DNA of 64,000 nt from Streptococcus parasanguinis (GTDB lineage Bacteria > Bacillota > Bacilli > Lactobacillales > Streptococcaceae), in assembly GCF_018499505.1 (NCBI RefSeq), contig NZ_JAHDAC010000001.1:248001-312000 (forward strand). Reading direction: 5' to 3'. The translations under genes were made by a program, and so were the position numbers. Below the pieces are notes generated by a model. That model was not told where the DNA came from, made no database searches, and saw nothing but the letters and a program-made list of their open reading frames with translations. How positions within the stretch are numbered: position 1 is the first letter of the stretch; every line of letters starts with the position of its first letter. Positions 3,238-54,895 of the stretch are shown one piece after another.

Positions 3238-4719
3238 ATGAGACTGCTCTTATCCAAAAAACAGAGACGCCAATTGCAATTATTGGAAATCTTGATTAAG
3301 GAAAAAAGATGGTTCCACTTGAAAGAGTTGGCCAAGCGTTTGGATTGTACAGAACGTTCGTTAAAAGAGGATTTGTCTAATCTTCGTAGTACATTTGATG
3401 ACTTTTTAATTGAATCCTCTACCAATGGGATCAAAATCAGTTATGAGGATTCGGTTGGGCTTGAGGTGATTTATCATCACTTTTTTAAAGAATCACAAGC
3501 CTTCGACTTGATTGAATATCTCTTCTTCAACAAGGATGTTTCTAATGAATATATTTGCAGAAAGTTTGATCTGAGTTACCAATCTTTCTACCGCTTGATT
3601 CGGACGATCAATCAGAAACTTCAAACCAAATACAATGTAAAGATTGATTTGAAACCCTTGAATCTTGTCGGGGATGAAGTAGATGTTCGTTTCTTCTATG
3701 CCCAGTATTTTGCGGAACGTTATTACTATATGGAGTGGCCTTTCCCAGAATTTAAGGAAGAGGCGGTGACCGATTTGATCACCTTCTTCTTCAAACTCTA
3801 TGGCTATCCATTGACCTTCTCTTTACTCAGGTCTTATAAAGTTCTCTTGACAGTCTACTTATCACGTATTAAGCAGGGCTATTTTATTGACATGCCAACG
3901 AACTATGATGTGTATAAGGACCAGTATCAAGGGGTGACCAATGTCGAGGGGATGTTGCGCTACTTTAGTTTGCAGTTGGGTGTCGAGTTGAATGAAAAAG
4001 TGCTGGAGCAATTCTTCATCATCTTCATTCAAGAGAATTTCTATTTCAGCCCAGAAAGCTTGGTCGAAGCTGCAGAAACTGATCCGTATGCCAAAGAATC
4101 GACCAGACTCATCAAAGATATGTTCAAGGATCTATGCTATACCTATGATTTAGACATTGAAAATCTTGATGAGATGTTGATGCACGTTCACAATACGGCT
4201 CACTTAGGTCGGAAGGAATTATTCTCCGAGTTCCTCTTATTTGATACCAAGACCAATACCAACGAAGATTTCATGAGCATCTTCCCAGCCTTCTATGATG
4301 ATTTGAAGGAGCATATCATCACTTATATGAAGACCATGAAGCATGATCTGAACGAAGAGATCATCAAGCACATGATCTACACGGTCTACACTCACTGGGA
4401 ACGTCTCTTACCGCAGTTATTGCGCCGTCGGAAGTCCATTAAGGTCTTGATTATCAGTCGTTTTGACGATCACCATGCCAAATCTATGATTGATTTTCTA
4501 GATTTCTACTGTACGGATAACTTTGAATTTACGCAGATGATCAAGTACAATCTAACCGTAAACGATATCGAAGCTTCGGATGCAGATGTGGTGGTAGCCA
4601 ACTTTATGATGCCTGAATTAAAGAAAAAACCATTTATTTGTACAAGTAGTCTCTCATCGCTTGAGCTGGTTGAAAAACTCAATGCCTTCTTTTATGATTT
4701 TACCAGTGCAGAACACTAA
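3238..4719 (+). CDS. Mga-family transcriptional regulator (MgaSpn-like)
   Basis: A 493-residue protein opening with MRLLSKKQRRQLQLLEIL, then winged-helix DNA-binding segments (residues about 15-60 and 95-150). A long PRD-like middle follows, and an EIIB-like C-terminal region starts near KSIKVLIISRFDDHHAKS. Length and layout match the Mga/AtxA class and, as I recall, MgaSpn of S. pneumoniae, which is also 493 residues. These proteins act as global virulence or carbohydrate-linked regulators and can be phosphorylated by the PTS. It has its own promoter (TTAAAATATAAG about 40 nt upstream) and its own terminator. No obvious target gene sits beside it. Confidence 0.85.
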   Translation: MRLLLSKKQRRQLQLLEILIKEKRWFHLKELAKRLDCTERSLKEDLSNLRSTFDDFLIESSTNGIKISYEDSVGLEVIYHHFFKESQAFDLIEYLFFNKDVSNEYICRKFDLSYQSFYRLIRTINQKLQTKYNVKIDLKPLNLVGDEVDVRFFYAQYFAERYYYMEWPFPEFKEEAVTDLITFFFKLYGYPLTFSLLRSYKVLLTVYLSRIKQGYFIDMPTNYDVYKDQYQGVTNVEGMLRYFSLQLGVELNEKVLEQFFIIFIQENFYFSPESLVEAAETDPYAKESTRLIKDMFKDLCYTYDLDIENLDEMLMHVHNTAHLGRKELFSEFLLFDTKTNTNEDFMSIFPAFYDDLKEHIITYMKTMKHDLNEEIIKHMIYTVYTHWERLLPQLLRRRKSIKVLIISRFDDHHAKSMIDFLDFYCTDNFEFTQMIKYNLTVNDIEASDADVVVANFMMPELKKKPFICTSSLSSLELVEKLNAFFYDFTSAEH

Positions 4720-4745
4720 AATCAGGACCTGGTCCTGATTTTTTG
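4718..4745 (+). terminator. Rho-independent terminator after the Mga-like gene
   Basis: A near-perfect hairpin, ATCAGGACC/GGTCCTGAT, with a one-base loop and a T run beginning immediately after the stop codon. Confidence 0.9.
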
Positions 4746-8481: not shown

Positions 8482-9285
8482 ATGGCAACATTATTATCAA
8501 TTGAAGGTATTCATAAGACATTTGAAGCAGGAACAGTCAATGAAAACCATGTCTTAAAAGGCTTGGATCTACAAGTAGAAGAAGGGGACTTCATTTCGGT
8601 TATCGGTGGAAATGGAGCTGGGAAATCAACCTTGATGAACATCTTGGCAGGAAATCTAGTCGTGGATGAAGGGGATATCTTGCTAGAAGGTAACTCCATC
8701 AAAAATACGAGTGTTCGTAAGCGTGCGAAAGATATTGCGCGTGTCTTCCAAGATCCTAAAATGGGGACAGCTTCTCGTTTGACCATTGAAGAAAATATGG
8801 CTATTGCCCAACGTCGGGGGAAATCTCGTGGTTTGAGTTGGGGAGTTCGGGAGAAAGACCGTGAATTATTCCGTGAAGCCTTGAAGGAACTGAATATCGG
8901 TTTAGAGAACCGTCTCAAAGTCGATACCCAATATTTGTCTGGTGGGCAACGTCAAGCTTTGACCTTGGTCATGGCAGCCTTGGTCAAACCCAAACTCTTG
9001 CTTCTGGATGAACATACCGCAGCGCTCGATCCTAAGACCAGTGAAATGGTCATGGAATTGACACAAAAGATCGTGGAAAGCCATGATTTGACAACCTTGA
9101 TGATTACGCATGATATGAACCATGCCATTGAATACGGCAACCGCTTGATCATGCTCTACCAAGGCAAGATCGTTGTCGACGTCAAAGGAGAAGAAAAGAA
9201 AAACCTAACGGTTGAAGATTTAATGCGCCTCTTCCAACAAAACAGTGGTGAAACCCTGGTGAGTGATGAATTGGTATTAGGATAA
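8482..9285 (+). CDS. ABC transporter ATP-binding protein (TrpZ-like)
   Basis: A 267-residue ATPase. Walker A is GGNGAGKST near residues 46-54, the signature is YLSGGQRQA near 152-160, and Walker B is LLLLDEHTAALD with a histidine where many ABC proteins have proline; the switch histidine is in MITHDMNHA. This E-H-T-A form is typical of the TrpZ/YufO-like subgroup. It completes the operon. Repeat R1 copy 2 begins 3 nt after the stop and its first hairpin may end transcription. Confidence 0.85.
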   Translation: MATLLSIEGIHKTFEAGTVNENHVLKGLDLQVEEGDFISVIGGNGAGKSTLMNILAGNLVVDEGDILLEGNSIKNTSVRKRAKDIARVFQDPKMGTASRLTIEENMAIAQRRGKSRGLSWGVREKDRELFREALKELNIGLENRLKVDTQYLSGGQRQALTLVMAALVKPKLLLLDEHTAALDPKTSEMVMELTQKIVESHDLTTLMITHDMNHAIEYGNRLIMLYQGKIVVDVKGEEKKNLTVEDLMRLFQQNSGETLVSDELVLG

Positions 9286-9288
9286 AAT

Positions 9289-9462
9289 GAGAGTGGGACA
9301 GAAATCGGTAATTCGTTAGAATTCGATTTCGTCGTCCCACCTCCGCACAGTTGAGTAGGGCTGTAAAAGCTGATGAAATCAGCGTAGAGAGCCCACTCAA
9401 CCACTGCGTCTTGCTCGACAATCCAAAAATAATTGAGAGGCTAGGACTTTTGCCCCAGCCTC
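9289..9462 (-). repeat. R1 dispersed repeat, copy 2 (inverted)
   Basis: A reverse-complement copy of the R1 element, 174 nt, between the ABC operon and the treR remnant. It begins GAGAGTGGGACAGAAATCGG and ends CCCCAGCCTC. The terminal hairpin has decayed relative to the other copies (GCCCCAGCCTCC in place of GTCCCAGCCTCT), so the left-end stem is weaker. Confidence 0.9.
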
Positions 9463-9464
9463 CT

Positions 9465-10074
9465 TTATTTCCTCCGCTCTGCATAGTCGACAAAATGAAA
9501 CTTGTCTAATTTGTGTCGGCTTTCGGTGAATTGGAATTGCCGTCCGTCTGCTAGGTGAACTTGGGAACGAACCGTTACCACGTGTTGGTCTTTTCCAAGA
9601 TCCAGTAAGATTTTGTCGCGGTTATCGATTGGTGAAATCAAGATTTCTTTTTTTGCATAGCTAATCTGCAATTTCAAGTCTTCTTCTATATATGGTAGAT
9701 AGAGTGCTGGGCAATTTCCTTGGTCAGGCCAGTGATCAGCTCTCTGTCTAGGTAATCAATATCTAAGACAGAAGCGACACCATTCACCACCCGTTGCCGG
9801 GTTACTTTCCAAACCAATCGGTGAAGGGGGAAACCTGTCTTTTTAGCGCCTTTTTCATCGATACTGATTTTTTCCAAACGAATGACATTGGTTTCTGAGT
9901 GAAGACCAGATGCTTTGACGATTTCTTGGTAGCTGGTTAATTGGGAAACGGGGAAGTCAAAGTGTGCTTGCCTACAAATTTGCGATCCCATTCCTTGAAC
10001 AGTCTCGATAAAGCCTTCTTCCTGCAAGAGCTTGAGCGATTTACGGATGGTATCTCTACTGACCTGGTAGTGCC
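9465..10074 (-). pseudogene. treR: treR remnant (trehalose operon repressor, GntR family), truncated and frameshifted
   Basis: Read on the minus strand, the sequence starts inside the winged-helix domain (HYQVSRDTIRKSLKLLQEEG) and continues through the UTRA ligand domain (PVSQLTSYQEIVKASG, then VVNGVASVLDIDYLDRELITGLTKE). At about 9690 the frame breaks: SIYHI is followed by a stop. A second frame continues with YIEEDLKLQISYAKKEILISP to the stop at 9465. About 30 N-terminal residues, the start codon and the promoter are missing; the break joins directly to the treA remnant at 10074/10075. Intact TreR is about 236 residues and represses trehalose uptake genes. This copy cannot be functional. 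Confidence 0.85.
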
Positions 10075-21441: not shown

Positions 21442-21618
21442 GAGAGGCTGGGACAAAAGTCCTAGCCTCTCAATTATTTTTGGATTGTCGAGCAAGACGC
21501 AGTGGTTGAGTGGGCTCTACTACGCTGATTTCATCAGCTTTTACAGCCCTACTCAACTGTGCGGAGGTGGGACGACGAAATCGAATTCTAACGAATTACC
21601 GATTTCTGTCCCGCTCTC
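21442..21618 (+). repeat. R1 dispersed repeat, copy 3
   Basis: 177 nt, nearly identical to copy 1 and in the same orientation, with differences only at scattered positions (for example GAGCAAGACGCAG against GATCAAGATGCAG). Ends are GAGAGGCTGGGACA and TGTCCCGCTCTC. Between it and metB (21619-21728) I see only a promoter-like TAAAATAG. Confidence 0.9.
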
Positions 21619-21728
21619 TTTTCTTATAGTTTGAAACTATAGCTAGGTCTTGAAAATGGGAAAACCGCTCTCCTCATAATAGTGATAAAATAGTAAGCAG
21701 TTAGATTGAATGTTTATCGGAGGGCAAT

Positions 21729-24023: not shown

Positions 24024-24027
24024 AAAC

Positions 24028-24172
24028 TCGAAATACGGTAGGTGAGGCTACCACAAGGATACGGATGACTACCGCAAAGCAGTGGAGACACTACTCGTTG
24101 GTCAACAGTCCTGATCGCAAAGGTCAAGACTAAGCTCATTTCATTGCCTTGTGGAGCTAAAGCTTGGACGGT
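24028..24172 (+). ncRNA. M-box (ykoK) magnesium riboswitch aptamer
   Basis: Conserved M-box landmarks are present in order: GGTAGGTGAGGCTACC (24037-24052), CCACAAGGATAC, GGTCAACAG (about 24099), and GAGCTAAAGCTTGG near 24154. A perfect 8-bp helix pairs CCACAAGG (24051-24058) with CCTTGTGG (24147-24154). M-box RNAs fold when Mg2+ is plentiful and switch off transporters. Here it lies upstream of a magnesium P-type ATPase gene with a terminator between them. GGTAGG in the aptamer could also pair with CCTACC in the left arm of that terminator, a possible antiterminator. Confidence 0.88.
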
Positions 24173-24218
24173 CAGTTTTTTTGAGAGTTTTGATTGAAAA
24201 ATAAATGACGAGTTTCAT

Positions 24219-33667: not shown

Positions 33668-33737
33668 GATTTCTAAAGTTTGTTTGAAAGAAAAAGTTAG
33701 CGAAACCTTTCTTCGGATTGATGATAAAGATAATTTA

Positions 33738-33875
33738 GAAACTTTCCTTAGGTGAGTACGGACGTCAGCGAACTTCGAAGAAGTTCCATGACTTAGTTTT
33801 GAGCCTAAGGTTTCAAAACTCCCGAGTGCTAGAAACAATAATGTTTCTAGCACTTTTCTCACGGCGGAAAGTTTC
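33738..33875 (+). repeat. R2 structured element, copy A
   Basis: A 138-nt core closed by GAAACTTTCC (33738-33747) and GGAAAGTTTC (33866-33875). Inside: GTGAG (33752-33756) with CTCAC (33858-33862); hairpin GAACTTC/GAAGTTC (33770-33786); hairpin GTTTTGA/TCAAAAC (33796-33819) whose loop holds CCTAAGG; and hairpin GTGCTAGAAAC/GTTTCTAGCAC (33826-33853). The loop CCTAAGG (33804-33810) is fully complementary to CCTTAGG (33746-33752), giving a likely pseudoknot. The flanks 33668-33737 and 33876-33965 show nothing else. Confidence 0.88.
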
Positions 33876-33968
33876 AATATATTCCCAAATGATTCAAAAA
33901 ATAGCATAATTTCTATCATGAAGAAACATTAATCTCATTTTATAGGAAAAACAGTTTGAATATGTTCG

Positions 33969-33998
33969 AAAGGAAGGTCCTGAAGACCTTTCTTTTTT
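33969..33998 (+). terminator. Rho-independent terminator downstream of R2 copy A
   Basis: AAGGTC/GACCTT hairpin within GAAAGG...CTTTC, followed by six T residues. It ends any transcript from liv that reads through R2. Confidence 0.85.
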
Positions 33999-42470: not shown

Positions 42471-42497
42471 AAAGGGAGTTGGACTCCCTTTTCATTT
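42471..42497 (+). terminator. Rho-independent terminator after the ArsC/Spx gene
   Basis: AAAAGGGAGT (42471-42480) pairs perfectly with ACTCCCTTTT (42484-42493). Confidence 0.9.
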
Positions 42498-44096: not shown

Positions 44097-44125
44097 AAAA
44101 AGAGAACCCCATGGTTCTCTTTTCA
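44097..44125 (+). terminator. Terminator after the ABC-F gene (left copy of a duplicated hairpin)
   Basis: AAAAAGAGAACC, loop CCAT, then GGTTCTCTTTTCA. 25 of 29 positions match the hairpin at 44387-44415; all four differences are in the loop. Confidence 0.9.
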
Positions 44126-44136
44126 GATTCTTCTTA

Positions 44137-44298
44137 TAAACTTTCTTTAGGTGAGTACGGACGTTAGGTGAAATTATCCAGTGGATGATTTCAGCAATCC
44201 AGGAAGTTCCATGACTAATTATTGAGCCTAAGGTCTCAATAATTCCGTGTGCCTGAAACAAATCTGTTTCAGGCACTTTTCTCACGGTGGAAAATTTC
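44137..44298 (+). repeat. R2 structured element, copy B
   Basis: A diverged R2 copy with the same plan. The outer stem (from AAACTTTCT at 44138 to AAAATTTC ending 44298) carries one mismatch. The inner stem is GTGAG (44151-44155) with CTCAC (44281-44285). The second hairpin is TTATTGA/TCAATAA with loop GCCTAAGGTC, and the third is GTGCCTGAAAC/GTTTCAGGCAC; both arms changed together relative to copy A. The first variable hairpin is replaced by a longer one (TGAAAT-ATCC with GGAT-ATTTCA). The remaining 44299-44386 holds nothing recognisable. Confidence 0.85.
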
Positions 44299-44386
44299 AG
44301 TGGATGAATGACTTAAATAATTAGAATTCATTTTTTTACCAATGAATCTATTAGCTAATTTTATGTAAAATGTTTATCAATATCTT

Positions 44387-44415
44387 AAAAAGAGAACCGT
44401 TTGGTTCTCTTTTCA
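44387..44415. terminator. Terminator of the slrA-like gene (right copy of a duplicated hairpin)
   Basis: AAAAAGAGAACC, loop GTTT, then GGTTCTCTTTTCA. It directly abuts the minus-strand stop codon at 44416 and works as a terminator on that strand. Confidence 0.9.
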
Positions 44416-54573: not shown

Positions 54574-54596
54574 CAACTCCAAAGATAGAGTTGTCT
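54574..54596 (+). terminator. Terminator hairpin, left member of a 23-nt duplication
   Basis: CAACTC/GAGTTG hairpin immediately after the P-type ATPase gene. All 23 nt recur at 54869-54891. This copy lacks the long T run, which is replaced by the start of the R2 element. Confidence 0.85.
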
Positions 54597-54600
54597 CAGA

Positions 54601-54664
54601 TTGAAGAAAAAGATAATTTGGAAACTTTCCTTTTGAAGAAAAAGATAATTTGGAAACTTTCCTT
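54601..54664 (+). repeat. Tandem 32-bp duplication of the R2 5' arm
   Basis: Positions 54601-54632 and 54633-54664 are identical, each beginning TTGAAGAAAAAG and ending GGAAACTTTCCTT. The second copy contributes the 5' strand of the outer R2 stem, so the element has two possible left arms. Confidence 0.93.
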
Positions 54665-54790
54665 AGGTGAGTATGGACGTCAGCGAACTTCCACGAAGTT
54701 CCATGACTTAGTTTTGAACCTAAAGTTTCAAAACTCCCGAGTGCTAGAAACAATCGTGTTTCTAGCACTTTTCTCACGTCGGAAAGTTTC
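54653..54790 (+). repeat. R2 structured element, copy C
   Basis: GAAACTTTCC (54653-54662) pairs with GGAAAGTTTC (54781-54790). Inner stem GTGAG (54667-54671) with CTCAC (54773-54777). Hairpins GAACTTC/GAAGTTC with a changed loop (CAC), GTTTTGA/TCAAAAC, and GTGCTAGAAAC/GTTTCTAGCAC. The pseudoknot loop is CCTAAAG, one mismatch from full complementarity with CCTTAGG. The rest, 54791-54868, is AT-rich and otherwise empty. Confidence 0.88.
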
Positions 54791-54858: not shown

Positions 54859-54895
54859 AAAAAAAAAACAACTCCAAAGATAGAGTTGTCTTTTT
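54859..54895. terminator. Bidirectional terminator, right member of the 23-nt duplication
   Basis: A long A run, then CAACTC/GAGTTG (54869-54888), then five T residues. It serves the minus-strand DUF3397 gene and any transcript through R2 copy C. Confidence 0.9.

Follow-up and report, generated by a model that had tools for sequence, protein, structure and literature searches.

The structured repeat that occurs three times in the window (the whole 64,000-nt stretch of Streptococcus parasanguinis DNA analyzed here) is best explained as part of a mobile element. With a probability of roughly 0.8, we read it as a ~260-nt IS1182-type MITE that carries a structured core and often lies between two copies of a terminator hairpin at the 3' ends of genes. 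The terminal repeats, the duplication of the hairpin and the likeness to streptococcal IS1182 elements together indicate that the element behaves in this way. An IS1182 transposase is likely to move it, as its sequence suggests, and the core itself is a conserved multi-helix fold that is probably functional.

Copies of the element and their terminator hairpins

The sequence-only reading had described three full copies on the plus strand, and these are present as described at 33738-33875 (copy A), 44137-44298 (copy B) and 54653-54790 (copy C). A covariance model (R1) scores them at 157.3, 112.4 and 152 bits, respectively, copies A and C being identical to two of the sequences used for training and copy B not being among them. 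These coordinates cover the core only; the full unit is longer and includes terminal repeats and duplicated hairpins, all annotated here on the plus strand. Around the 138-nt core of copy A, the terminal repeats have both decayed to 13 of 19 consensus positions (left, 33713-33731; right, 33952-33970), and a terminator-like hairpin detected by a terminator scan lies 3' of the right one (33968-33996). Copy B, whose variable hairpin is 24 nt longer, lies between a first terminator hairpin at 44097-44125 and a second at 44387-44415 with the same stem and a different loop; its right terminal repeat is decayed (44370-44388, 12/19), its left one is barely recognizable (9/19), and the empty site in contig L061 has a single hairpin. 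In copy C, the two hairpins (54574-54596 and 54869-54891) are identical over 23 nt, the left terminal repeat (54596-54614) matches at 15/19, no right terminal repeat is recognizable (best 11/19), and the 5' end of the element contains a short tandem duplication (54601-54662, in which 54601-54630 equals 54633-54662). The window also holds a second repeat family of ~178 nt with an inverted structure of its own (910-1087, 9284-9467 in inverted orientation, and 21443-21620; copies 94-99% identical), as well as an M-box magnesium riboswitch at 24027-24184 (RF00380, 94 bits).

The number three is an effect of the size of the window: the 1.84-Mb genome (G000) has about 33 element sites, counted after split rows had been merged by hand and with three fragments (22, 23 and 66 nt) and reverse-strand echoes left out. 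The 138-nt fold makes up the core of a non-coding element that measures ~260 nt and ends in inverted repeats (TTAGATTGAAGACAAAG / TTTGTCTACATTCTAA), as seen in a 260-nt consensus derived from the 34 of 85 copies with a recognizable right end; the element is short and has no transposase gene. Four of the ~33 sites are long forms (C8:57405-57706, C11:273479-273778, C8:506673-506975 and C14:84353-84653), in which the two parts of the core span 300-303 nt instead of 138. The additional sequence measures ~163-165 nt in this genome and ~265 nt in contig L033. In these long forms, as in those of L033, L060 and L097, it looks like an extra structured domain ahead of the last hairpin, placed between core positions ~65 and ~74 in the relatives. 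The element is carried by S. parasanguinis, S. australis, S. rubneri and S. xiaochunlingii; flanking sequences from the genome studied here align with S. parasanguinis contigs at 90-97%. In the wider genus (94 copies), 13 or more of 17 positions match at 25 left and 24 right ends, compared with 0 and 0 in shuffled flanks, and both ends match at 12 or more of 17 in 22 copies. To judge by their sequences, most of the 94 copies are incomplete at one or both ends, whether by loss or from the outset.

Many copies have a terminator hairpin on their upstream side and the same hairpin on their downstream side, the latter followed by a T-run. In 40 of 87 copies, the duplicated hairpin scored no lower than the 95th percentile of 261 mismatched-flank controls, and in 8 of these it exceeded the control maximum; these controls pair the flanks of different copies, related sites occur among both controls and copies, and some of the 87 rows represent one site in several genomes. 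Among the best 24 rows, hairpins are 19-31 nt long, and in 23 of them 21-27 nt separate the end of the left hairpin from the core. The other 47 of the 87 copies have no duplicated hairpin above control, and for copies that lack the duplication or both ends, decay and other origins cannot be told apart.

Comparison of full with empty sites gave 12 aligned pairs, of which 7 were clean, representing 4 distinct sites. At three of these, there is one hairpin when the site is empty and two when it is full, one of the two being sometimes decayed. For instance, the window has a single terminator hairpin at 42471-42493 (plus strand), at which the S. parasanguinis contigs L061, L113 and L072 carry the element together with a second, decayed left hairpin. 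At the fourth site, the hairpin is single in both states: the window is empty at 4718-4745 (plus strand), and the copy in a relative (G030, L147) has no visible left hairpin copy. In S. parasanguinis S32 (L113:7105-7242), an element occupies the terminator of copy B in the opposite orientation, on evidence that includes an eighth, misaligned full/empty pair, pointing to a separate insertion, independent of copy B, at one target.

Two further observations concern the flanking hairpins. At L138, L352 and L359, they have identical stems and reverse-complementary loops (25/25, 20/20 and 20/20 matches after inversion), so that one hairpin was probably flipped after insertion. In L304, a core copy has a group II intron match (RF00029, 1669-1733, minus strand, 47.6 bits) at a distance of 24 nt, and group II introns and the element may share terminator targets. 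Group I or II introns and IStrons had been considered for the core itself on account of its GTGAG and GTTCCATGACT motifs, and were dropped since, with the score thresholds applied, no Rfam intron match covers the core; a group II match that ends at 33737 is at chance level (E = 0.81).

The statement that all copies lie 3' of plus-strand genes in one orientation holds for this genome and fails for the genus. Here, 27 copies were examined and 26 of them follow a gene on their own strand, 15 of these 26 being uninformative for orientation as they lie between convergent genes. Between tandem genes, 31 copies agree with this orientation and 5 do not among the 80 of the parasanguinis group, compared with 20 and 36 among the 94 of the wider genus; both tallies are based on simple open-frame calling. 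Given the wider-genus counts and the presence of both orientations at the site of copy B, we abandoned a universal orientation rule.

A conserved, covarying fold

Copy A has a predicted folding energy of -58.7 kcal/mol, compared with -29.3 ± 3.5 kcal/mol for 200 dinucleotide shuffles (z = -8.3), and copy C is similarly far from its shuffles (z = -8.1). The nested fold comprises a closing stem, a GTGAG/CTCAC helix, a CGGA/TCCG helix, a GTCA/TGAC helix with the variable hairpin, a hairpin with a CCTAAGG loop, and the last hairpin; the CGGA/TCCG and GTCA/TGAC helices are additions to the architecture proposed earlier. The unpaired stretches around GGAC, AGC and CCTA..GT are conserved. Covariation of the stems, first claimed from the copies in the window, is borne out by compensatory changes that recur genus-wide. 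In an alignment (A1) of 50 of 64 non-redundant copies, from which 14 were left out (162-nt variants, truncated and long forms, and some others), both sides had changed in 37 of 55 tested pairs, a set that includes 4 pseudoknot pairs. In this alignment, 93.9% of cells were paired; none of 500 shuffles reached the observed values, and slid partners gave 27-50% pairing. RNAalifold returned 47 pairs, 37 of them with double changes. The proposed pseudoknot fared differently: the complementarity between CCTTAGG and CCTAAGG is kept in 89.9% of cells, but covariation is absent (0 of 7 pairs, with 500 of 500 shuffles reaching that value). We therefore regard it as conserved complementarity that is not supported as a covarying pseudoknot.

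Selection on the folded structure, as the sequence-only reading had proposed, is supported by this covariation, by the covariance-model scores and by conservation at orthologous sites. The latter was assessed in 28 ortholog pairs from 12 groups, one of which (g12) gave no result. In the 12 cross-species pairs (g1-g3), core identity was 0.89-0.98 and was higher than that of the element's 3' part in 11, than that of the upstream flank in 10 (the remaining 2 tied at two digits), and than that of the downstream sequence in 10 (1 tied, 1 lower). In the 16 pairs from close relatives, the core exceeded the 3' part in 10, tied with it in 4 and was lower in 2. Eight ortholog pairs had 45-51 of 51 base pairs identical and differed at 3-8 of 36 unpaired positions; of the 22 base pairs that had changed in these comparisons, 1 was compensatory. 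Part of the core's conservation could be due to gene conversion among copies.

Such selection might act on the core as DNA, in the form of a cruciform or hairpin recognized by, for example, the transposase or a host protein, rather than on RNA. The base pairs are indeed mostly of the Watson-Crick type, with little of the G-U tolerance usual for RNA, and the predicted folding energy of copy A hardly differs between its strands (-58.7 and -59.6 kcal/mol). However, 29 of 30 IS1182 loci have no match to the core although most have the same ends, and the conserved unpaired GGAC, AGC and CCTA..GT stretches suggest more than a palindrome, which leaves this explanation rather unlikely. We consider it less likely still that the element is a chain of spare terminators and nothing else, its hairpins being kept for stopping transcription. 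The last hairpin is followed by TTTT in most close copies, copies are located at gene ends, and in several insertions the upstream hairpin has fewer T's than the downstream one, all of which would suit a terminator. Yet the T-run is missing in some divergent copies (e.g., L157), a simple terminator scan flags the downstream host hairpin only and not the core, and a terminator would have no need for third and fourth hairpins, a CGGA/TCCG helix or conserved loops.

Relationship to IS1182 and to other small repeats

Streptococcal IS1182 elements, of which ISSmi2 is a named example, are the closest counterparts of the element. The IS1182-family transposase (NF033551) was found at E ≤ 0.001 in 83 of 118 Streptococcus genomes, 42 of them above the curated cut-off. 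In 30 loci, taken as the best match per genome, both ends match those of the repeat at 14 or more of 17 positions in 20 and one end does so in 7 more, meaning that in 27 of 30 loci the terminal repeats come within 1-3 of 17 bases at one end at least; in the remaining three (L221-L223, which have longer transposases), neither end resembles the repeat's. At a looser threshold, both ends were recognized in 25 loci, and in 16 of these the IS is flanked on both sides by the same hairpin (16-27 nt, at most 1 mismatch; the 16 include one site counted in two genomes), which likens them to the element in both target and whole-hairpin duplication. The other 9 of the 25 have no hairpin duplication. The two differ in that the IS measures ~1540 bp and encodes a transposase, and in that 29 of the 30 loci lack the fold. 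The one locus with it, L203 (95.4 bits), has the core at 1260-1396, between the left end (1223) and the start of the transposase gene (1474), a position at which other IS1182 elements have, as judged by eye, a terminator-like hairpin.

The properties expected of a MITE were thus found in the element itself: terminal repeats that match those of an IS, a target duplication like that of the IS, small size, and no transposase gene. An autonomous partner in the same genome was not detected, as NF033551 had no match at E ≤ 0.001 in G000, an assembly that is 90% complete, nor in G024, both of which are rich in copies. Conversely, three genomes (G074, G076 and G077) have IS1182 and no core was found in them. 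Nine stray sites in G000 resemble the terminal repeats away from any core, and no obvious transposase lies between two such ends, with frames judged by eye.

ISSmi2 of S. mitis B6 is described as having no stop codon of its own and creating no target duplication, the latter being a difference from the streptococcal element studied here (PMC2828477). ISSmi2 is placed in the IS1182 family (PMC10383233) and likely belongs to the subgroup studied here. Full-length streptococcal IS1182 matches have open frames of ~440 to 610 aa, a spread that would be consistent with the missing stop codon described for the ISSmi2 transposase gene. In staphylococci, the IS1182-family elements IS1272 and TnSha1 are likewise described as inserting into terminator hairpins; there, the hairpin is deleted or replaced, whereas the streptococcal element duplicates it (PMC4923244, PMC5678879). 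The legend of Fig. 13 in the IS1272 paper draws duplication as an alternative branch of the model (PMC5678879).

Mobile small repeats with a conserved RNA-like fold also include the bcr1 repeats of the Bacillus cereus group, whose host and ends are unrelated to those of the element. IS200/IS605 elements are not known to have terminal inverted repeats or target duplications. It is very improbable that the element is a BOX, RUP or SPRITE repeat or a single-stranded hairpin element of the IS200/IS605 (REP-like) type, the last being at odds with its inverted-repeat ends and duplicated target. The BOX, RUP and SPRITE repeats of S. pneumoniae are likewise streptococcal, intergenic, small, interspersed and structured, are found near gene ends, and have been called parasitic, SPRITE having been likened to a terminator (PMC3049150). 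Moreover, a 2013 survey lists three SPRITE-profile hits in an S. parasanguinis genome (PMC3875467). SPRITE, as a terminator-like repeat, was in fact our first guess, which we rejected on ends, GC content and fold: SPRITE is described with AAAA/TTTT ends, a single 18-bp duplex and a mean GC content of 28.1% (PMC3049150), while the element has a multi-branch fold and 42-43% GC (43% in copy A, 42% in copy C). Terminator duplication is not among the features described for any of the three in the part of the source available (PMC3049150).

The SSRC8 small RNA and the spread of the fold

The sequence-only reading could name no known family, and had listed a catalogued match as counting against it. 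There is such a match: the Rfam family RF02616 (SSRC8_2) is the same sequence family on the opposite strand, catalogued as an sRNA with no mention of a mobile element in the text consulted. On the minus strand of copy A it scores 47.9 bits, short of the gathering score (72); at the gathering score, copies B and C are not reported, and another copy of the same genome, at the L138 site, passes with 78.4 bits. At E ≤ 0.001, RF02616 occurs in 170 of 197 Streptococcus genomes, with 24 of 197 (G000 included) above the curated cut-off and 0 of 14 in the control. In all 18 other core-carrying loci scanned, its match overlies the core on the minus strand, and no other Rfam family overlaps the core there. 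The best match (L351, 340.8 bits) extends over 281 model positions from one hairpin copy to the other, with the first hairpin at 3-21, an end TCAGAACGGAGACA that resembles the end of several IS1182 elements and, at 260-282, the second hairpin and its T-run. SSRC8 of S. pyogenes was detected by Northern blot and circular RACE, and its level falls in late stationary phase; the transcript comes from the strand opposite to that considered by the sequence-only reading, and the available text of the paper uses neither "transposon" nor "insertion sequence" (PMC3675131). In the open-access literature, we found no paper that describes this MITE or ties SSRC8 to a mobile element. The catalogued sRNA SSRC8 thus appears, from its sequence, to be a copy of this element, read from the other strand.

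The reverse order is conceivable, namely that the core is in the first place a streptococcal small-RNA gene family (SSRC8-like, minus strand) that acts in trans or antisense to the 3' ends of its neighbors, with mobility as a mere means of spread. We hold this for possible though doubtful. It would account for the wide occurrence and consistent minus-strand overlap of RF02616, for the experimental detection of SSRC8 and for the conservation of the core at orthologous sites, but up to 46 copies per genome would be unusual for a trans-acting sRNA, and the transcription reported in the accessible literature concerns one locus in one species (PMC3675131). The wobble pairs also lean towards the minus strand: in the plus-strand reading of alignment A2 (from whose 111 rows 11 reverse-strand echoes, plus 8 duplicates, were dropped), we counted 4330 Watson-Crick, 45 G-T, 96 A-C and 160 other cells. 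This excess rests on related sequences, however, with both kinds of wobble rare and 20 of the 96 A-C cells in one helix (P2b), and we discarded it as proof of the strand. The suggestion of a structured RNA, a mobile element or both thus stands as regards mobility, through the IS1182-type terminal repeats, duplicated hairpins and empty sites. It is not supported as regards movement as a single-stranded hairpin, and an RNA has been reported for one relative.

The model detects the fold in 176 of 197 Streptococcus genomes at E ≤ 1e-4. Searches with stricter filters and a capped number of matches scored per genome found it in at least 20 of 148 genomes and at least 2 of 48 genera of the order, and in at least 26 of 398 genomes and at least 1 of 145 genera of the class. 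The exception outside Streptococcus in these searches is a genome from another family of the order (G314), which has 46 matches. No IS1182 ends were seen by eye in the 11 copies of G314 read with their flanks, and the fold is therefore not tied to IS1182. Within L365-L384 of this genome, some copies form tandem arrays and in some the outer sequence extends the closing stem; 18 of 20 copies lie behind a co-oriented gene, the median distance from stop codon to core being 11 nt, and 10 of 20 are followed by at least four T's. One may tentatively see in the fold a functional nucleic-acid family of its own, near-universal in Streptococcus, that rides different mobile vehicles to gene 3' ends (IS1182 ends beside duplicated terminators in Streptococcus; no such ends, and partly tandem copies, in G314). 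It would then be a self-spreading module that takes over or tunes termination, with SSRC8 as one domesticated copy.

For the IS1182-type MITE that we favor in Streptococcus, we propose that the transposase would cut at the feet of an extruded terminator hairpin and that filling-in would then leave a complete hairpin on either side. With the second hairpin and its U-tract, the host gene would retain a functional terminator, and the insertion would do almost no harm. The core is probably transcribed, whether it forms the 3' end of the mRNA from upstream or gives, as in SSRC8, a minus-strand RNA that runs from hairpin to hairpin. Its role would most likely be to guard the element against transcription, by analogy with the terminator-like hairpin that other IS1182 elements appear to have at the same position, although some divergent copies, such as that in L157, do not have the T-run that this role predicts behind the last hairpin.

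These results connect an IS family, a repeat found across the genus and a streptococcal sRNA listed in Rfam, which have so far been kept apart. Where annotations treat SSRC8 as an sRNA in its own right, the entries could be reinterpreted as copies of a mobile element, and the many natural insertions offer material for the study of hairpin-targeted transposition. They suggest a low-damage way of landing in a genome, in which the element picks a terminator and copies it, such that the host gene likely retains its stop signal.
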